Below are positions 2,072 to 13,210 of a stretch of DNA of 36,633 nucleotides, in pieces. The DNA comes from Deltaproteobacteria bacterium (GTDB taxonomy: Bacteria > Desulfobacterota > Desulfovibrionia > Desulfovibrionales > Desulfomicrobiaceae): the NCBI GenBank assembly GCA_009930495.1, contig RZYB01000008.1, forward strand, positions 1-36,633. Reading direction: 5' to 3'. Within the stretch, counting starts at the first letter, position 1, and each line of letters starts with the position of its first letter. Under the pieces are notes generated by a model. The model searched no databases. It was not told the DNA's origin and saw nothing but the letters and a program-made list of their open reading frames with translations. The position numbers were made by a program, and so were the translations under genes.

Positions 2072-5000
2072 TCAGCCTTCCCGTTGAACGATCTGAACCT
2101 TGCCAAGATACGCTATCATTTCATCAAGCAGAGCCCTGATTTCGCGGTCTTCCTTTTGCATTGCGGCCGTCTCTATCTTAAAGCCGACATGGCCGAGATA
2201 ATCGAACCCATAGGTGCTCCCCAGGCCTTTCTGGCTATGGCCATGCCGACAAATGGTATCGTAATCCTTGGACGCCAGGGCCGACTCCATCTCCTCGACA
2301 TTGGTCTTCATGGTATCCATGAACAGTGGTACCAACTCGTACAGTTCCGCGTCCACCTCCACGAGCAGGTTATCCGCCCGATCCTGAACGGCATCAACGG
2401 CGACAGCTCCGGGCACGGGCTCCTCGATAGGCTGATCGTCGAGTTCCGGCTTGGCCTCGTAAATGATGTCAACCCGGTCCAGATAGGTTTCCAGGGCGCC
2501 AAACAGCTTGACAAGCTGGGCCTCGTCACGACCTTCGGCCGCGCGCTGGATACGCAACCCCACGCTGCTGATGAAGTCAAAACCGTAGGTGCTGCCAAAA
2601 CCTTTATGGCTGTGACCAAAGCGCCTGACCGTGGTGAAATCCTTCTGCTCCAGCGCTTTTTTCATCAACTCCAGATCCTTCTGCATGGCATCCATGAGGA
2701 AGGGGATAAGCTCGGACATTTCTTGAGACACATGAACCGTGTAACGCCGGCTGCCCGTTGTTTCCAAATCATCCGCCGCATGGGCGTCCTCTCCGCCGGC
2801 GGTTTGGATCTTTGGTGTCTCGCCGGTGTTCATGAACACGGCCAAATGGTTGAAGGCTTCGGAGATGACCGCGACCTGACGACCCCGGGCCGCGGTTTCG
2901 ATGATCCGACCGGACTGACTGATTTCATCGACCGCGTATGTACTGCCCAACCCCTTGAGGCTATGCCCGCAACGCTGAATCGTTGGGAAATCACCTGCGG
3001 CCAGGGCATCGGCGATCTGCGTCTGGAAATCACGCACCGTGCGCAGAAAAAGCGGCCGCAAATCCTCCAACTCAGGATCGATCTGAACCGGCGAATCGAG
3101 TTCAACGGTAAAATCGAGAGGGACCTGAATTTCCGAGGGGCTGGGCACCTCTTCCTGGGCCACGACCGGCTGGGCCTTACTGGTCAAGGGCTCCCTCTGT
3201 CCCGCGAACATGTCGATCACGCTGATCAGAGCCTGCTTTTTGATCGGCTTGGCCAAAAATTCCGTGCACCCGGCGTCCATGGTTTTCTGGCGATGTTCCT
3301 GGAAGGCATGGGCCGTCAAGGCGATGATCGGCGTCCGATATTCGCGCTTCTCCTCTTCCCACAACCGAATGCGGCGCGTGGACTCCAGACCATCCATGAC
3401 GGGCATTTCCATGTCCATCAGAACCAAGTCGAACGGCTCTTCCGTGAATTTCTCCAAGGCGACCTTGCCGTTCTCGGCGTGCACCAGCGTCACATTGGTG
3501 GACTTGAGAAACAACTCCACAACCCGACGGTTGGCCTCGACGTCATCGACCAGCAGCACTTTCCACCCCTTGCCGCCGCCCTCGACTATGCGTCGCCGCT
3601 GAGCCTCGCCGACAATATCCAGCACCATGCCTTGCAGGTGCGCATTGCGCTCATCCCGCAATATATAGGAAAGCGGACCAAAAGACGCGGCGTCCGGCAA
3701 CGCGGCCAGATCCTGGACTGTGTTCACGACCAGTACCATGCGCGGCACGTCCCCGCCTTGGCCGACAAGCAGGTGGGCGGCGCTGATGCCCGGTTCTCCG
3801 TCAACCTCGGAATCGATCAAAATCGCGTGAAAGGCGGCATCACCCGCGTGCTGCCCCAAGATATCAACCACCTCGCCAACATTTTTCTTGGAAATGGGAA
3901 CAAGTCCCCAACTGCGCACCAGGGCCGAAAGGCTGTCGTGAGCGCCGGGATGATCTTCCAGGACAAGCAACTTGGTGCCAGCGGGCATTGAGGGCCGGAC
4001 ATCCTCGACCTGGGTCTGGAAATCGGGAACCAGGGGCAGCTTGAAGAAAAATGTCGTTCCCTTGCCCGGGAAGCTCTCGACCCAAATCTCCCCGCCCATG
4101 AGCTCCACCAACTTCTTGGAGATGGCCAGACCAAGGCCGGTTCCGCCAAACTCACGCGTTGTCGAGGAATCCGCCTGGGCAAAACTCTCGAAGATAGTCT
4201 GGGTCTTGGCTTCGGCAATACCGATACCCGTATCCTTGACCGAGAAGAGACAGCACGGGGCGCCGTCCTCGTTGACCGACTCGTCGACGCGCAAACTGAC
4301 GCCGCCGGTACTCGTGAACTTGATGGCGTTCCCCAACAGATTGATCAAAATCTGACGGATACGCGTGGGGTCGCCGACATAACGCTGGGCAAGGCCGCCA
4401 GCCACGTGCATGTTCAAATCCAGGCCTTTCTCCTCGGCCCGGTAGACAAACAGCTTGCTCACGTCGCTGACAAGATCGTTCAGATTGAACGGAATGGATT
4501 CGAGCTTGATCTGCCCCACCTCGATCTTGGAAAAATCGAGAATGTCGTTGATGATCCCCAGCAACAGCTCGCCGGCCGAGCTGAAGGTCTTCACGTACTC
4601 AGCCTGTTCCTCGTTCAACCCGGATTCCTGGAGCATCTCGGCCATGCCCAAAATGGCGTTCATGGGAGTTCGTATTTCGTGGCTCATGCGCGCCAGGAAT
4701 TCACTCTTGGACCGGGTGGCCTTGTCCGCGTCCTCCTTGGCGACGCGCAAGTCCTCGGCATGCTGACGCAACAATTCGCTGGCCTTTTTCCGTTCGGAGA
4801 TGTCCTCCAAAACAAAGATCACGCCCTTGCCAATATCCTCGGGGTCAATGGCCTTGGCCGAAACCTGGCTCCAAAAAACTGCTCCATTCTTCTTGCGAAA
4901 CTGATATTCCAGCTGGGCGATTTCTGTTTCATGTAAGCGATTGTAAAATTTCTCCACGAAGAGATCAAAATCGCGACCGGAAATGTGAAACTTTTCAGGA

Positions 5001-5881
5001 CTGACCTGCGGCATTTCTTCCGGCGCGTATCCAAAAATACTGGCAAAACGACTGTTGGCTCGAATCACGCGGTGGTCCGAGGAAAGTACCGCGATACCCA
5101 CCAGGGAGTTATCGAAAATAGCCTCCAACTCATGATAGGCGTTGTTCAAGTCCTCGGTTCGGGCGTCGACCTTCTTTTCCAGATTCTTATACAATTCCTT
5201 GAGACTCCGGCTCATGTTGTTGAAGCCCTGGGCCAGGACACCCAGTTCGTCGTTACGCCGGTCCAAGTTGGTGGTCACGAACTCACCGCGAGACAGACTT
5301 TCGGTGAGCATCGACAGGTTGACGACGGGCAAAATAAGCAGGCGGTTCAAAAAGACGTACAAAAACAACGCGATGACACCGAGCACGGCGGCAAAGGCGG
5401 CGACCAACTGAATGGTGCTGGTCTGCACTTCCTTGCGCGCCTTGTCGATGAACATCCCCATGCGGACCTGACCCAGGTTCTGTCCGTTGAAGGCGATATC
5501 CTTGGTCACCACGGTCACGTCCTCGACGCTGAAGGCATTGGCCAAGTCGTCGCGAGTCAGTCCAGACCGCACCTGCCCCCGCAGCAAGGACGAACCCGCC
5601 GCGTCCACGATCTGGCAATAGGCCACCAACGGTGAATACTCGACCCTCGTGGCCAGCTCTTCCAAAAGATAATAGCTTTCGCGCTGAATCGGGGCGACGC
5701 TGGCCTCGGCAACCATTTCGGCCTGCTGGGAGCCCTGCTGGCGGATGTCGGTGATGAGAAAGTTCAACTGCGTGACGTAGATAAAATAACCCAACGCGAA
5801 AAAACAGGCCGCGAGGATAAACTGGATACCCACGTGGATCTTGAGCTGCAGCAAATTAAAGAACGATTTTTTTCTTTCCAT
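2072..5881 (-). CDS. hybrid sensor histidine kinase with two REC and three HPt domains
   Basis: This is a 1269-residue inner-membrane hybrid kinase. In order: a transmembrane segment (about 19-38), a periplasmic sensor region of about 115 residues, a second membrane segment (about 155-180), HAMP, a PAS domain (about 250-370), HisKA with H401 in MSHEIRTPMNAIL, HATPase (DPTRIRQILINLLGNAIKF; DTGIGI; GTGLGL), a degenerate receiver (about 640-760; the expected Lys reads YILRDE), an intact receiver with D823 in LVLMDMEMPVMDG and Lys in FLAKPIKK, then three HPt domains with His at about 973, 1090 and 1215. Each HPt keeps the pattern H-S-x-K-G-x-G-S-T-Y. The ATG at 5881 is preceded by a weak AGGA. 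Kinases of this class autophosphorylate and pass phosphate His-Asp-His-Asp. The single-domain receivers on both sides are the obvious final acceptors (inference). The input signal is unknown. Confidence 0.95.
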   Translation of the reverse strand: MERKKSFFNLLQLKIHVGIQFILAACFFALGYFIYVTQLNFLITDIRQQGSQQAEMVAEASVAPIQRESYYLLEELATRVEYSPLVAYCQIVDAAGSSLLRGQVRSGLTRDDLANAFSVEDVTVVTKDIAFNGQNLGQVRMGMFIDKARKEVQTSTIQLVAAFAAVLGVIALFLYVFLNRLLILPVVNLSMLTESLSRGEFVTTNLDRRNDELGVLAQGFNNMSRSLKELYKNLEKKVDARTEDLNNAYHELEAIFDNSLVGIAVLSSDHRVIRANSRFASIFGYAPEEMPQVSPEKFHISGRDFDLFVEKFYNRLHETEIAQLEYQFRKKNGAVFWSQVSAKAIDPEDIGKGVIFVLEDISERKKASELLRQHAEDLRVAKEDADKATRSKSEFLARMSHEIRTPMNAILGMAEMLQESGLNEEQAEYVKTFSSAGELLLGIINDILDFSKIEVGQIKLESIPFNLNDLVSDVSKLFVYRAEEKGLDLNMHVAGGLAQRYVGDPTRIRQILINLLGNAIKFTSTGGVSLRVDESVNEDGAPCCLFSVKDTGIGIAEAKTQTIFESFAQADSSTTREFGGTGLGLAISKKLVELMGGEIWVESFPGKGTTFFFKLPLVPDFQTQVEDVRPSMPAGTKLLVLEDHPGAHDSLSALVRSWGLVPISKKNVGEVVDILGQHAGDAAFHAILIDSEVDGEPGISAAHLLVGQGGDVPRMVLVVNTVQDLAALPDAASFGPLSYILRDERNAHLQGMVLDIVGEAQRRRIVEGGGKGWKVLLVDDVEANRRVVELFLKSTNVTLVHAENGKVALEKFTEEPFDLVLMDMEMPVMDGLESTRRIRLWEEEKREYRTPIIALTAHAFQEHRQKTMDAGCTEFLAKPIKKQALISVIDMFAGQREPLTSKAQPVVAQEEVPSPSEIQVPLDFTVELDSPVQIDPELEDLRPLFLRTVRDFQTQIADALAAGDFPTIQRCGHSLKGLGSTYAVDEISQSGRIIETAARGRQVAVISEAFNHLAVFMNTGETPKIQTAGGEDAHAADDLETTGSRRYTVHVSQEMSELIPFLMDAMQKDLELMKKALEQKDFTTVRRFGHSHKGFGSTYGFDFISSVGLRIQRAAEGRDEAQLVKLFGALETYLDRVDIIYEAKPELDDQPIEEPVPGAVAVDAVQDRADNLLVEVDAELYELVPLFMDTMKTNVEEMESALASKDYDTICRHGHSQKGLGSTYGFDYLGHVGFKIETAAMQKEDREIRALLDEMIAYLGKVQIVQREG

Positions 5882-8254: not shown

Positions 8255-8746
8255 CTATTTGGTGAGAATATATTTGTTCAAAACAGTGTCAAAAACATTC
8301 GTGTCGGCAAAACGGGCTCCGAAGCGCCCCCGCCGAACCGATTCGATGATAATTTCCTTTTCCACCTCGGTGTCGGAAGAATCATCCAGAAAAAATCTGA
8401 TAATAAAAATATTTTCCGGATGAACCATGGGCGCATTCCCAGAAAACCCCAATCCCTCCAAGGAGACATCGGTGACCGTGATCGCGGCCAACGGCTCCCG
8501 CGCGCCGCGAGATGAAAAAAGAAATCCAGAAAGGCGACCCGGTTTACGGTAATATTTCCGCAAGTTGAACGACACGTTAAAGACATGCGAGCATCGCTTG
8601 CAGGTCGCGCCGACAAGGCGATAGCCCGACGTTGGAATGCTTTCAACGTCTATTTCTTTTTCCAACTTGCAATTTGGGCACGTAATAATAACTTTCTTTT
8701 TTTTGTGCACAAACACTTCGACATGTGTATCCATGATACAATCCAT
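8255..8746 (-). CDS. zinc-ribbon PilZ domain protein
   Basis: This is a 163-residue cytoplasmic protein. Two Cys pairs (C23/C26 in TCPNCK and C49/C52 in TCKRCS) form a likely zinc ribbon. The PilZ domain begins at R63, with the c-di-GMP-binding pattern RxxxR (R63 to R67, RKYYR) and DxSxxG (D93 to G98, DVSLEG), followed by beta strands ending in RFGARF. Both motifs are intact, so c-di-GMP binding is expected from family knowledge. It is the first gene of the minus-strand signalling block, 32 bases before the PstS-like/OmpA gene. The ATG at 8746 has no good ribosome site; the in-frame ATG at 8734 is an equal alternative. Confidence 0.88.
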   Translation of the reverse strand: MDCIMDTHVEVFVHKKKKVIITCPNCKLEKEIDVESIPTSGYRLVGATCKRCSHVFNVSFNLRKYYRKPGRLSGFLFSSRGAREPLAAITVTDVSLEGLGFSGNAPMVHPENIFIIRFFLDDSSDTEVEKEIIIESVRRGRFGARFADTNVFDTVLNKYILTK

Positions 8747-9111
8747 ATTTTTTCAAGTTTAGCACATAACATTCCGTATCATGAAAAACAAAATCAAAGG
8801 CGGGACAAAATTTTGCCCCGGGGTATCGCAATGAATGTCACAAGGCAAAAACGGGGAGCAAACCTCCCGCGCAAGTGCCGAGACTGTCGTCGGGGCCGAA
8901 GGCCACGGCCCAAATAATTGCAGCACCTACGCCATATTTTTGTATTTATCAAACACCAAACCGGCGTGGCCCCGAATAAAACATGCATGGGTCATTATCA
9001 AAAACAGGGTATAACGCAATCCAAAGGATAACGTGGTCCACTGTGACCAAGGCATGCACGACCGCCTTGGACCGAATTGACAGCCCAAACGAACTGAACA
9101 AGAAAACACCA
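8747..9111. other. divergent intergenic region
   Basis: About 365 bases lie between the divergently transcribed PilZ and RlmN-like genes and hold no convincing gene. They are more AT-rich than the surroundings near the PilZ start. Two structures stand out: the 20-bp near-palindrome listed separately, and a 6-bp GC hairpin (GGGCCG 8893-8898, CGGCCC 8906-8911) with no T-tract on either strand. A weak minus-strand sigma70-like pair (TTGTTT, 17 bases, TATGTG) ends about 20 bases before the PilZ start. In-frame codons upstream of the RlmN-like start do not resemble the missing RlmN N-terminus. Confidence 0.5.
8801..8820. promoter_or_regulatory. 20-bp near-perfect palindrome, possible operator
   Basis: The arms CGGGACAAAA and TTTTGCCCCG are reverse complements at 9 of 10 positions with no spacer, centred between 8810 and 8811. 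It sits 55-75 bases upstream of the PilZ start, in the space shared with the plus-strand RlmN-like gene. The lack of a loop and of an adjacent T-tract argues against a terminator and for a dimeric regulator site. The cognate protein is unknown. Confidence 0.35.
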
Positions 9112-10074
9112 ATGAACCTCATCCTTCCCGTGCACGCCACGAATGCTCCTTGCGGACCAAGACATTTCTGGAGCGAGAACGCCAGCCCAAGACTTCCAGT
9201 CATCGATCGCCACGCCAGCACCGACGGGACCACCAAGCTTTTACTGGAACTGGCCGACGGCCATGCCATCGAAAGCGTGGCCATGGCCATGCCGACCACC
9301 CACACGCTCTGCCTGTCCACGCAGGTAGGATGCCCTCTCGGATGTGTCTTCTGCGACACGGGCCGCTCCGGCTATATCCGCAACCTGACCACATCCGAAA
9401 TAATCGCCCAGGCGCGGTCCACGGCTCAAGCCGTGCATGCCGCCACCCAGACATGGCCCGAACGAATTGTCTTCATGGGCATGGGCGAACCGTTGCTCAA
9501 TCTCGACAATCTCCTGCCGGCCCTTCGCCTGCTGACGTCCCCCCATGGACCCAATCTCTCCTGGCGCAAGATCATCGTGTCCACGGTGGGAATCCCGGAT
9601 GGACTGCGTGCCCTGGCCTCGGAGCGTCTGGCCCTGCCCGCCATTTCGCTGCACGCGCCCACCCAGGAACTGCGCGACCGACTCATGCCCGGAACGCGCC
9701 GCTGGCCCCTGACAACGCTGATTCCCCTTCTCGAATCCTACCCCCTGCCAGGCCGGGAGCGCATTCTTATCGAGTATATCCTGATCCCAGGCGTCAACGA
9801 CACCGGGAACCATGCCACGCGCGTCCATGCCCTGCTTGGCCGTCTCCGGACCAAGATCAATCTCATCCCATGCAACCCCTCGCCAGGAACATCCTTCCAA
9901 AAACCGCCCCAACTGGCGATCGATACTTTTGCCCGCCGTCTGCGCGATCTGGGGCAGACCGTATTCGTCCGGCGCGATCTGGGGACGGATGTCCACGCGG
10001 CCTGCGGCCAACTGCGATTGGCGCGAAAACTTGTTCCCGACCATCTTGATGCATGCGCGGAGGCCCCCTCATGA
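9112..10074 (+). CDS. rlmN: RlmN/Cfr-family radical SAM RNA methyltransferase, short N-terminus
   Basis: RlmN methylates C2 of A2503 in 23S rRNA (and A37 of some tRNAs) by radical SAM chemistry. The 320-residue product has the Cys triad CPLGCVFC (C74, C78, C81 from this start), the family motifs RNLTTSEII, FMGMGEPLLN, AISLHAP, KINLIPCNP, and the substrate-linked Cys in AACGQL (C298). Relative to E. coli RlmN it begins about 50 residues late, so most of the N-terminal accessory domain that contacts RNA is absent; the DGT-K strand before the core is present. The ATG at 9112 has no strong ribosome site. The open frame extends back to 8983, but those codons look non-coding. The stop overlaps the photolyase start (ATGA). 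It could be a paralogue of a full-length RlmN elsewhere, or a Cfr-like enzyme. Confidence 0.85.
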   Translation: MNLILPVHATNAPCGPRHFWSENASPRLPVIDRHASTDGTTKLLLELADGHAIESVAMAMPTTHTLCLSTQVGCPLGCVFCDTGRSGYIRNLTTSEIIAQARSTAQAVHAATQTWPERIVFMGMGEPLLNLDNLLPALRLLTSPHGPNLSWRKIIVSTVGIPDGLRALASERLALPAISLHAPTQELRDRLMPGTRRWPLTTLIPLLESYPLPGRERILIEYILIPGVNDTGNHATRVHALLGRLRTKINLIPCNPSPGTSFQKPPQLAIDTFARRLRDLGQTVFVRRDLGTDVHAACGQLRLARKLVPDHLDACAEAPS

Positions 10075-11420
10075 ACCCACGCCGTTACCGAGTCCCCGAA
10101 TCCAGGCCAGAACGTCCGGGGCCAGTGCTTTACTGGATGCATCGCAACCTGCGCGCCAGCGACAACTGGGCCCTGATCCATGCGCGCGAACAAGCCCTGG
10201 CCAGGCACGCCCCCGTGGGCGTGGTCTTTTGCCTGGCGCCGCGTTTCCTGGACGCCACCCTGCGCCATTTCGACTTTCTGCTGCGCGGACTCGGGGAAAC
10301 CCTCGCCCGCTTGGCCAATGCCAATATCGCGTGCTTTGTCCTGACCGGCGACCCCGGCCTGGAAGTGGCCCGCTTCGCGCGCGAGGCCGGCGTCGGGCTC
10401 GTGGTCACGGACTTCGACCCACTCCGGGCCAAGCACGGCTGGCGGACCCGCTTCCTGGAAGCCAGCCCCGTTCCCCTGCACGAAGTGGATTCGCGCAACA
10501 TCGTGCCCTGCTGGGTCGCTTCGGACAAACGCGAGTACATGGCCAAGACCATCCGCCCTAAAATCAAACGCCATCTCCAGGAATTTCTGGAACCGTTTCC
10601 AGATTTCGAGCCCCACCCCCTGACATGGCCGGGCGCCCCCGGCATCCCCGACATCGACGCGCTGCAAGCCTCCCTCGAGATGGACACGACCGTCCGCCCC
10701 GTGACCTGGATCACGCCAGGGGAACAGGCCGGCCACGATCTGCTCCGGACATTTCTGGACAAACGGCTGCGCCACTATGACCAACGCAACGATCCCAACC
10801 AGGACGTCTGCTCCAACCTGTCGGCCCATTTGCATTTTGGGATGCTGTCGGCCCAGCGCGTGGCCCTGGAAGTCATGGCCCAGCCACGTCAGGACGAACA
10901 GGCGGATGCTTTTATCGAAGAACTTATTATTCGGCGGGAACTGGCCGACAATTTCTGCGCCCATGCCCCGGACCATGACCGCGTAACCAGTTTTCCGGTC
11001 TGGGCCCAGGAAACCTTGAGCCGCCACGAACGAGACCCCCGCCCCGCCATCTATTCTCCCGAGGAGTTTGAGTTCTCCCACACCCACGATCCACTTTGGA
11101 ACGCGGCGCAGCGACAAATGGTCGTCACCGGCAAAATGCACGGATACCTGCGGATGTACTGGGCAAAAAAAATCCTGGAATGGAGCGAGGACGCGGCTCA
11201 AGCCATGGCCACGGCCATCCGCCTCAACGATCGGTATAGCCTCGATGGACGGGACAGCAATGGTTACACCGGTATCGCCTGGTCGCTGGGCGGCGTGCAC
11301 GACAGGGGATGGACCGAGCGTCCGATTTTCGGCAAGGTTCGCTACATGAACTACCAGGGAGCGCGGCGCAAGTTCGATGTCGACGCCTTTGTCCGGACCT
11401 GGCCGCTCCAGGCCGTTTAA
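10071..11420 (+). CDS. phr: class II CPD deoxyribodipyrimidine photolyase
   Basis: This light-driven flavoenzyme splits cyclobutane pyrimidine dimers in DNA. The 449-residue protein has the N-terminal Rossmann part (VLYWMHRNLRASDNWAL) and the FAD-binding part with class II signatures: SNLSAHLHFGMLSAQRVALE, EELIIRRELADNFC, THDPLWNAAQRQMV, GKMHGYLRMYWAKKILEW, NDRYSLDGRDSNGYTGIAWS and FGKVRYMNYQG. These match class II rather than class I enzymes and appear complete. The ATG at 10071 overlaps the RlmN-like stop by four bases and has a strong GGAGG 7 bases upstream, so the pair is translationally coupled. tamA follows after 23 bases. A photolyase in a likely anaerobe implies exposure to light or at least to UV damage. 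Confidence 0.95.
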   Translation: MNPRRYRVPESRPERPGPVLYWMHRNLRASDNWALIHAREQALARHAPVGVVFCLAPRFLDATLRHFDFLLRGLGETLARLANANIACFVLTGDPGLEVARFAREAGVGLVVTDFDPLRAKHGWRTRFLEASPVPLHEVDSRNIVPCWVASDKREYMAKTIRPKIKRHLQEFLEPFPDFEPHPLTWPGAPGIPDIDALQASLEMDTTVRPVTWITPGEQAGHDLLRTFLDKRLRHYDQRNDPNQDVCSNLSAHLHFGMLSAQRVALEVMAQPRQDEQADAFIEELIIRRELADNFCAHAPDHDRVTSFPVWAQETLSRHERDPRPAIYSPEEFEFSHTHDPLWNAAQRQMVVTGKMHGYLRMYWAKKILEWSEDAAQAMATAIRLNDRYSLDGRDSNGYTGIAWSLGGVHDRGWTERPIFGKVRYMNYQGARRKFDVDAFVRTWPLQAV

Positions 11421-11443
11421 GTCAACCGACCAAGGACACACGC

Positions 11444-13210
11444 ATGCCCGGCTTGATCGTTCGGGTCTTCATCTTTTTCTGGCTTCTCCTCTCCGCCCTG
11501 CCCGGACGAAGCTTGGCCAAGGAAAACTCCTACCAAGTCGATTTTTCCGGCCTTTCGGCCGAGCTGACGACGACGTTGTCCTCGGTTTCGGACTGCGTCA
11601 CCCTGCGCGGCACGCCACCCGAAACCATGGGCCTGCTCGCCACCCGCATGCGCAATGACCTCAAGGCATTCACCAGGGCGCTTGATGCCCTGGGCTATTT
11701 CAAGGCCCGCGTCGCGGGAGATGTGAACCAGGACGCATCTCCGCCCATTGTCCGGTTTCGCATCGATCCAGGACCACGCTTTGTCCTGGGCCAATCCGAA
11801 GTCCGATTCTTCCCGGCAAACCCCGAACTCCAACGCCCGGCCCGACAAATCCTGGACATGCTGAAACCCGGCACCAAATACGCCGCCGGCCTGATCCTGG
11901 ACGTGGAAACCGCGCTGCTCGACGAACCGCGCAGGCGTGGGTATCCCACCCCGTCCATGGCCCGTCGATCGGTGATCGCCGACCACGCCACCAACACCGT
12001 GAATGTTGTTTTCACGATGGACACAGGCCCCGCGGCCGCCTTTGGGCAAACTGTTTTCGATGGGCTGGAGCGCGTGACACGCGATCATGTTCTCGGCCGG
12101 GTGGCGTGGCAAACGGGCAGGCCCTTTGATCAACGACTGATCGACCGCACCCGCGAAGACCTCATCCGCACCGGCCTGTTCCGCTCCGTGACCGTGGAAA
12201 CGGACCGGGTCGAGTCGGGACGGGTGGACATGCTCGTCCATGTCCTGGAAGCGCCGCACCACGCCGTGCGCACGGGTCTGTGGCATTATTCGGACCTGGG
12301 GCTGGGCGGCAGCGCGGGCTGGACTCACCGCAACCTGTTCGGGAGTGGCCAGAAATTCGACGTCGAGGCCAAGATATCCGAAAACCAGCAATCCACCATC
12401 GCCTCGCTGACCATGCCCGACATGTGGCATCCGGATCAAAGCCTGGGCCTGGCCGCGACCTGGGACCACGAGCGCACCGACGTCTATGCCTCGCGCCGTC
12501 TGGCCTTGTCCGCGATCCTGACCAGGACTTTTGCCAAATTCCGCCTGAGCCAGGGGCTCGCCTATCGCCGGGACGACGTCGACGAGGACGGTGCCCGCCA
12601 GTTCAACCTCGTGTCCATTCCCCTTGGGGCGGACCTGAGCACTGTCGATACCCCTCTGGACCCGACCTCGGGCTTCACTCTCGCCTCGCGGCTCGAACCG
12701 TTCAAAGCCATTGGCGGCCGGAGCTCCTCCTTTATCCTGTGGTCCATCAGCGGCTCTCATTTCCTGGAACTGGCGGCGCCCGGAAAACTGATTCTGGCCA
12801 CCCGAGGGCGCTACAGCGTTCTGGCCGGAACGGGCCGGGAAAGCGTGCCCGAAGACCTGCTGCTGTACGCCGGGGGCGGTGGATCGGTACGGGGTTACGC
12901 CTACCAATACGCGGGACAGTTGGACGAGGACGACGAACCCGAAGGCGGGCTGAGCAGCGTGGATCTCACGGCCGAGTTGCGTTGGCGCATGGCCAAGGAT
13001 TTCGGAGCCGTGCTTTTTGGTGACGGAGGTCGATCCTTCACGGACAGAAATCCTGGTCGTCTCGCGGACTATTTCTGGGCCGTGGGCACGGGTCTGCGCT
13101 ATTACACGCCCATCGGCCCCATTCGGTTGGACGTGGCCATGCCCCTGGATCGACGCGACGGAGTCGACGCGCCCTTCCAGGTCTATGTCAGCCTGGGGCA
13201 GGCATTCTGA
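11444..13210 (+). CDS. tamA: TamA, outer-membrane translocation and assembly protein
   Basis: This is an Omp85-family outer-membrane protein of 588 residues. A signal peptide (hydrophobic IVRVFIFFWLLLSALPG, cleavage probably after SLA near residue 26) leads into POTRA domains: RFRIDPGPRFVLGQSEVRFF, FTMDTGPAAAFGQTVFDGL and LIRTGLFRSVTVETD. A C-terminal beta-barrel follows (GLGGSAGWTHRNLFGSGQKF; GGGGSVRGYAYQYAG; GTGLRYYTPIGPIRLDVA), ending in an aromatic Phe as outer-membrane proteins do. The VRGY motif marks Omp85 loop 6. The adjacent TamB partner makes TamA a better call than BamA. The ATG at 11444 has AAGGA 7 bases upstream; a longer open frame from 11309 overlaps the photolyase and is unlikely. 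Confidence 0.93.
   Translation: MPGLIVRVFIFFWLLLSALPGRSLAKENSYQVDFSGLSAELTTTLSSVSDCVTLRGTPPETMGLLATRMRNDLKAFTRALDALGYFKARVAGDVNQDASPPIVRFRIDPGPRFVLGQSEVRFFPANPELQRPARQILDMLKPGTKYAAGLILDVETALLDEPRRRGYPTPSMARRSVIADHATNTVNVVFTMDTGPAAAFGQTVFDGLERVTRDHVLGRVAWQTGRPFDQRLIDRTREDLIRTGLFRSVTVETDRVESGRVDMLVHVLEAPHHAVRTGLWHYSDLGLGGSAGWTHRNLFGSGQKFDVEAKISENQQSTIASLTMPDMWHPDQSLGLAATWDHERTDVYASRRLALSAILTRTFAKFRLSQGLAYRRDDVDEDGARQFNLVSIPLGADLSTVDTPLDPTSGFTLASRLEPFKAIGGRSSSFILWSISGSHFLELAAPGKLILATRGRYSVLAGTGRESVPEDLLLYAGGGGSVRGYAYQYAGQLDEDDEPEGGLSSVDLTAELRWRMAKDFGAVLFGDGGRSFTDRNPGRLADYFWAVGTGLRYYTPIGPIRLDVAMPLDRRDGVDAPFQVYVSLGQAF

Follow-up and report, generated by a model that had tools for sequence, protein, structure and literature searches.

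Organization of the rlmN2 locus

The DNA analyzed here, a stretch of 36,633 nucleotides hereafter called the window, belongs to a genome assembly (G000) of 493 contigs that is 97.55% complete. It carries rlmN2, a gene encoding a short protein related to the radical SAM methylase RlmN and immediately followed by a photolyase gene. The surroundings of rlmN2 are organized as follows:

8255 to 8746, minus strand: divergent gene for a zinc-ribbon protein, a conserved neighbor (Zn_ribbon_4; synteny in 10 of 10 other loci)
8983 to 9111, plus strand: open frame upstream of the rlmN2 start, read as non-coding (no RlmN_N domain, codon-position GC, stops in the orthologues)
9077 to 9102, plus strand: promoter-like element TTGACA...AACTGAACAAG, just 5' of rlmN2 (match in eight of the 16 genus genomes)
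9112 to 10074, plus strand: rlmN2, short RlmN-like radical SAM methylase of 320 amino acids without RlmN_N (open reading frame, motifs, Pfam, NCBIfam, AlphaFold)
10071 to 11420, plus strand: phr, class II deoxyribodipyrimidine photolyase, overlapping rlmN2 by ATGA (TIGR00591, sequence overlap)
11444 to 13210, plus strand: tamA-like gene, a conserved neighbor (tblastn synteny, 10 of 10 other loci)

The phr product scores 565.5 bits against TIGR00591, which we take to be the class II photolyase model, and exceeds its cut-off of 550.05. The zinc-ribbon protein matches Zn_ribbon_4 (E 1e-6) with 29.0 bits, slightly under the cut-off of 30.3, and the gene at 11444 to 13210 is presumably TamA-like, as the next one is presumably tamB-like. 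The genus of the five genomes that carry rlmN2 is presumably Desulfomicrobium. Photolyase was found in 11 of the 16 genomes of this genus, and in all 11 the gene order is the same: zinc-ribbon gene (divergent), rlmN2 when present, phr, tamA-like gene and tamB-like gene. The five carriers (G000, G003, G008, G012 and G014) hold rlmN2 at this one locus and share the same ATGA junction with phr, and the gene is found in none of the five genomes without photolyase, of which G007 is only 63% complete. Among the matches listed for other RlmN genes (80 loci, many of them short), none had a photolyase alongside. The phr of G012 is broken into two frames and yields two matching pieces (G012:C16:45812-46961, locus L035), next to an intact rlmN2. 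Elsewhere in the window, positions 2072 to 5881 of the minus strand encode a protein of 1,269 amino acids that by eye resembles a hybrid sensor kinase carrying several phosphotransfer-like repeats toward the end.

The promoter-like element (TTGACA, then AACTGRACAAG) has one match in each of eight of the 16 genomes, always at this locus, and its reversed control has zero matches in the same 16. In four carriers it precedes the rlmN2 start by 8-9 bases, and in four non-carriers it precedes phr by 140-143 bases; by eye, diverged versions occur in G008 and G009 and none in G001. Because a sigma-70 consensus scan of positions 8700 to 11600 returned 0 promoters, the word promoter is only a reading of this conserved element. 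Should the element at 9077 be one, the rlmN2 message would be nearly leaderless. A distinct non-coding block, ATATCATTACAAATTCGAG, is located between the zinc-ribbon gene and phr in loci L131 to L136 (for instance L131:3791-3811). It occurs once in each of the six genomes of the genus that possess phr without rlmN2, with an exact match in none of the 10 others, and five of these six loci show an extended version of it. This block could serve to regulate phr. Judging from their position, rlmN2 and phr are probably made together from a shared transcript. Co-production with the photolyase would mean that the use of rlmN2 may be connected with exposure to light or UV, a link read from the photolyase position only.

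Coexistence with a full-length RlmN and distribution

The initial annotation had proposed to search the genome for a second, full-length rlmN. The outcome favors that annotation: such a gene is present on contig C4 (G000:C4) and its product, 46% identical to rlmN2, contains RlmN_N (residues 12-67, Pfam E 3.5e-17) and scores 369 bits against TIGR00048. The idea that rlmN2 could be the only RlmN of the genome was rejected on the basis of this copy. A canonical RlmN is encoded by all 16 genomes of the genus, the five carriers included, and that of G010 is spread across two contigs. The four orthologues of the window protein are 56-57% identical to it over the whole alignment and 59-61% over the matched part.

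A search of 297 genomes of the class, including 14 of the 16 of the genus, with profile A2 gave scores above 560 bits only in five genomes of the genus among the matches listed, the next match reaching 342.7 bits. Of 395 genomes sampled from the phylum, a single one, G000 itself, reached E values of 1e-108 or better. Neither sample revealed a short rlmN2 outside the genus among the matches listed. In a wider contig collection, the best identity was 47% among the matches listed (80 loci), with query patterns that are not specific to the short clade. Titles and abstract openings listed from the open-licence literature gave no account of a short rlmN2 gene. Within the genomes sampled, rlmN2 is a genus-restricted paralogue of RlmN.

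Two other RlmN genes deserve mention. Genome G017, from the same family, encodes a different second RlmN (L037:4578-5690), 40% identical to rlmN2 and with an N-terminus of normal length, 3' of a gene that by eye resembles a response regulator. In G029 (C1:2176262-2177170), the RlmN match consists of two pieces 90 bases apart within one open frame of 407 amino acids, a pattern suggestive of an in-frame insertion.

Catalytic core and family assignment

The catalytic residues are encoded at the following positions:

9310 to 9312, plus strand: Cys67, equivalent to E. coli RlmN Cys118, which resolves the protein-RNA crosslink (alignment)
9331 to 9354, plus strand: CX3CX2C iron-sulfur motif, Cys74/Cys78/Cys81 (sequence motif, alignment)
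10003 to 10005, plus strand: Cys298, equivalent to E. coli RlmN Cys355, the methyl-carrying cysteine, within AACGQL (alignment)

The core catalytic motifs announced by the initial annotation, including the cysteine triad and the AACGQL cysteine, were all recovered: Cys67, Cys74/78/81, Cys298 and, by reading of the sequence, MGMGEP. In the alignment, Cys67 is intact in the five short copies and shared by at least 95% of the 65 canonical rows (a set from which G017b was excluded). More generally, 48 positions each conserved in at least 95% of these rows are all intact in the five short copies. According to an excerpt of PMC9692996, class A radical SAM methylases are defined by a single radical SAM domain and two catalytic cysteines; rlmN2, in which Radical_SAM is the sole Pfam domain, fits this definition. 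It is highly likely, judging from these residues, that rlmN2 operates by the RlmN mechanism.

Against the NCBIfam model TIGR00048, rlmN2 scores 282.9 bits for a cut-off of 290, with positions 71-346 of the 355 of the model aligned, and none of the five short copies reaches this cut-off. Three Cfr models gave 168.6-174.6 bits, versus 282.9 for the best RlmN model; TIGR04432 and NF000424, with 168.6 and 174.6 bits, remained far from their cut-offs of 550 and 530. A Cfr-like resistance enzyme was rejected on account of these low scores and of the nesting of rlmN2 within the RlmN of its order, in a tree without Cfr rows.

Replacement of the N-terminal domain

The RNA-contacting N-terminal domain had been reported as lost from rlmN2; this loss is borne out and is shared by the five genomes. 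A domain search found no RlmN_N, an RNA-binding domain of HhH type, in any short copy; the domain is present in 38 of 40 canonical proteins, and the remaining two (L023 and L031) gain it from an upstream non-ATG start. The figure of about 50 missing residues given initially is correct relative to E. coli RlmN, where Cys118 takes the place of Cys67. More exactly, about 66 residues (median of the canonical rows) are swapped for about 30 unrelated residues in rlmN2.

The further claim that no upstream frame supplies the domain also held. An N-domain HMM built from 35 rows, for which two positive controls gave E values of 6.4e-35 and 3e-33, detected nothing when run on all six frames of the 1,000-base stretch preceding each of the five short genes (best E 2.9). 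In a survey of 160 partly redundant loci that matched RlmN and had a motif fit for use, the longest distance from a start to CX3CX2C was 71-74 amino acids in the four orthologues and at least 91 in canonical genes, two contig-end cuts excepted. The longest reading of the window gene gives 116, but the sequence upstream of 9112 was judged non-coding. The corresponding 363-residue protein starting at 8983 matches only Radical_SAM in Pfam, without RlmN_N. GC content by codon position is 0.35/0.51/0.56 in 8983-9111 versus 0.65/0.51/0.72 in rlmN2, and 44 open codons have a probability of about 0.11 of occurring by chance at the local base composition. In the other four genomes, an in-frame stop is encountered 10 to 18 codons before the rlmN2 start codon, at about the matching place. 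A hidden upstream N-domain or a frameshift was rejected on the strength of the blank HMM search, the non-coding GC pattern, the stops in the orthologues and the Pfam result.

The AlphaFold2 model of rlmN2 (45 rows) has a mean pLDDT of 90.3, with values below 50 for residues 1-13 and 311-318. Ahead of the core, it predicts only one five-residue helix (17-21) and no helical N-domain. The closest PDB chain to this model is E. coli RlmN 5hr7 (Foldseek E 3e-32, 37% identity); the top ten matches are all RlmN structures (E. coli and Sphaerobacter), Cfr comes eleventh and spore photoproduct lyase appears at rank 50.

Substitutions in the RNA-binding pocket

Two further positions distinguish the short copies in the alignment:

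9463 to 9465, plus strand: Arg118, Asn in 64 of 65 canonical rows and Arg in all five short copies; aligns with Cfr Ser151
9574 to 9576, plus strand: Ile155, Thr in 61 of 65 canonical rows and Ile or Leu in all five short copies; aligns with Cfr Ser187

Counted in the alignment, they are Asn172 and Thr209 of E. coli RlmN. At eight of the positions conserved in at least 90% of the 65 canonical rows, the short clade does not fully keep the canonical residue: five show mild exchanges between similar residues, Gly146 is retained in three of five copies and two changes, Arg118 and Ile/Leu155, are radical and complete. The contacts made by the RlmN pocket were read by proxy from the contact residues of Cfr. 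In the Cfr-rRNA structure, as excerpted from a preprint (PMC13001441), the target is followed on its 3' side by U2504, whose phosphate is bound by Ser103, Ser151, Ser153 and Ser187; helix H91 is held by the N-domain of Cfr.

Arg152 of rlmN2 is retained; its E. coli equivalent, Arg206, contacts tRNA G29 in the excerpted account of PMC5130265. The same excerpt indicates that RlmN reads distal parts of the tRNA and does not methylate the isolated anticodon stem-loop, so that an enzyme devoid of the N-domain would be expected either to depend on a partner or to work on an RNA that is smaller or held in another way. The suggestion of the initial annotation that specificity may differ gains independent support from the two pocket substitutions fixed in the five copies.

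Evolution and selection

A tree of the catalytic core (71 rows, quick method, SH-aLRT values only, several long branches flagged) groups the short copies in one clade (100), which has a stem of 1.73, is nested in the order's RlmN (100) and stands next to a sister group of moderate support (92/88). Inside the clade, G012 and G014 pair together (99) and are joined by G003 (89), without conflict with the full copies or with a concatenated four-gene tree, from which the split photolyase of G012 was excluded. This nesting indicates that rlmN2 arose within the order's own RlmN lineage.

Short copies are under purifying selection and are constrained, less so than the full copies. Their dN/dS ratios (NG86) range from 0.24 to 0.35 over all 10 pairs, versus 0.09-0.18 for the full copies of the same 10 pairs; these values are rough because distant pairs have high dS. 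The neighboring phr evolves nearly as fast (0.17-0.28 in six pairs), so the faster rate is only partly special to rlmN2. A pseudogene is unlikely in view of this constraint and of the intact catalytic residues.

The six genomes with phr and without rlmN2 lie on one side of a branch of the four-gene tree (100/100). This pattern fits a single loss if the root is near G000/G008, as in the RlmN tree; gain or loss depends on rooting. rlmN2 was probably lost once, in the sister clade. A search for remnants in the six empty loci gave nothing credible: the best hit (E 0.26) lies on the wrong strand, and 14 residues resembling the rlmN2 C-terminus (302-315) shortly before phr in L132 (E 0.79) are a hint at most.

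Proposed function and alternatives

We favor, with somewhat better than even confidence, the reading that rlmN2 is an adenosine-C2 methylase in trimmed form, that its RNA target is unlike that of the housekeeping RlmN and that it is probably co-made with the photolyase. It kept the class A core, shed the N-terminal domain that clamps the RNA and altered two residues of the pocket that grips the RNA just 3' of the target adenosine. In the reaction, a first SAM would methylate Cys298 and a second would be cleaved at the [4Fe-4S] cluster to yield the 5'-deoxyadenosyl radical; the resulting methylene radical would attack C2, rather than C8, of the adenosine and Cys67 would resolve the crosslink. 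The target would be an RNA loop, either distinct from the A2503/tRNA-A37 pair of full-length RlmN or more restricted than it. A different target is favored because the changes in domain and pocket went hand in hand, with no change in the catalytic core and with the full RlmN kept. Against it, the retained Arg152 also suits an unchanged tRNA target, and faster evolution with one loss would also be expected of a redundant enzyme for which there is little need.

Redundant activity is the main rival, although we find it rather unlikely. rlmN2 would then be a back-up RlmN acting on the same A2503 and/or tRNA A37, its N-domain dispensable, expressed along with the photolyase. The conservation of the entire catalytic core and of the tRNA-contacting arginine agrees with such a role; the replacement of two near-universal pocket residues in all five copies does not, nor does the keeping of a short copy in five of 16 genomes despite a canonical RlmN in every one. 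The excerpts quoted above, on distal tRNA reading and the unmethylated stem-loop (PMC5130265) and on the hold of H91 by the Cfr N-domain (PMC13001441), also argue against a dispensable domain.

It is improbable that rlmN2 acts on something other than RNA, such as DNA or damaged bases, teamed with the photolyase. Spore photoproduct lyase, a radical SAM enzyme of other bacteria, offers an analogy, and the adjoining phr in all five carriers, the lost RNA-gripping domain and the altered phosphate pocket would all be compatible with it. However, the core is clearly that of RlmN, as are the ten best PDB matches, neighborhood alone is weak evidence, and six relatives keep phr without rlmN2. A decaying duplicate with a deleted N-terminus would account for the long stem, the faster evolution relative to the full copy and the absence from the sister clade; it is nevertheless improbable for a gene that is open in five of five genomes, with constrained dN/dS, intact catalytic residues and a truncation at about the same place. 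An annotation artefact, with a true start upstream or a sequencing error concealing the domain, is suggested by the frame open to 8983 in the window and is extremely improbable given the blank six-frame search in all five genomes with working positive controls, an upstream stretch that is not coding-like and the stops in the other four genomes.

A bolder claim is possible and is held here only tentatively: rlmN2 could be a minimal, domain-stripped enzyme derived from RlmN that modifies a new nucleic-acid target to C2-methyladenosine or something related and shares its control with the photolyase, in other words a light- or UV-linked epitranscriptomic or repair enzyme of one genus.

Whatever its target, rlmN2 constitutes a natural experiment on the role of the RNA-clamping domain in RlmN and Cfr. 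Full-length and domain-less versions coexist in one cell and the sister clade lacks the short one, which makes the role of domain and pocket in target choice directly testable. A new target would add a site or a condition for m2A; an identical one would show that the N-terminal domain is dispensable.

Comparison with known systems

rlmN2 shares with E. coli RlmN (TIGR00048) the CX3CX2C motif, both catalytic cysteines, MGMGEP and the fold. It differs by the absence of RlmN_N, by the changes of Asn172 to Arg and of Thr209 to Ile or Leu (E. coli numbers), by its coexistence with a full RlmN and by its position next to phr. The class A radical methylase core is also common to Cfr (TIGR04432, NF000424), but Cfr possesses an N-terminal HhH2 domain, as described in the excerpted preprint (PMC13001441), with no such domain in rlmN2, and Cfr Trp101 lies in an insertion relative to the short copies in the alignment. 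The second RlmN of G017 is likewise an extra RlmN in a near relative; unlike rlmN2, it keeps a normal-length N-terminus and branches outside the RlmN clade of the order, on a long branch of unsure place. Finally, Arabidopsis RLMNL1-3, presented in an excerpt of PMC10838301 as single-substrate m2A methyltransferases, provide a precedent for RlmN paralogues of one organism splitting rRNA and tRNA targets, although these enzymes are eukaryotic and operate in different compartments.
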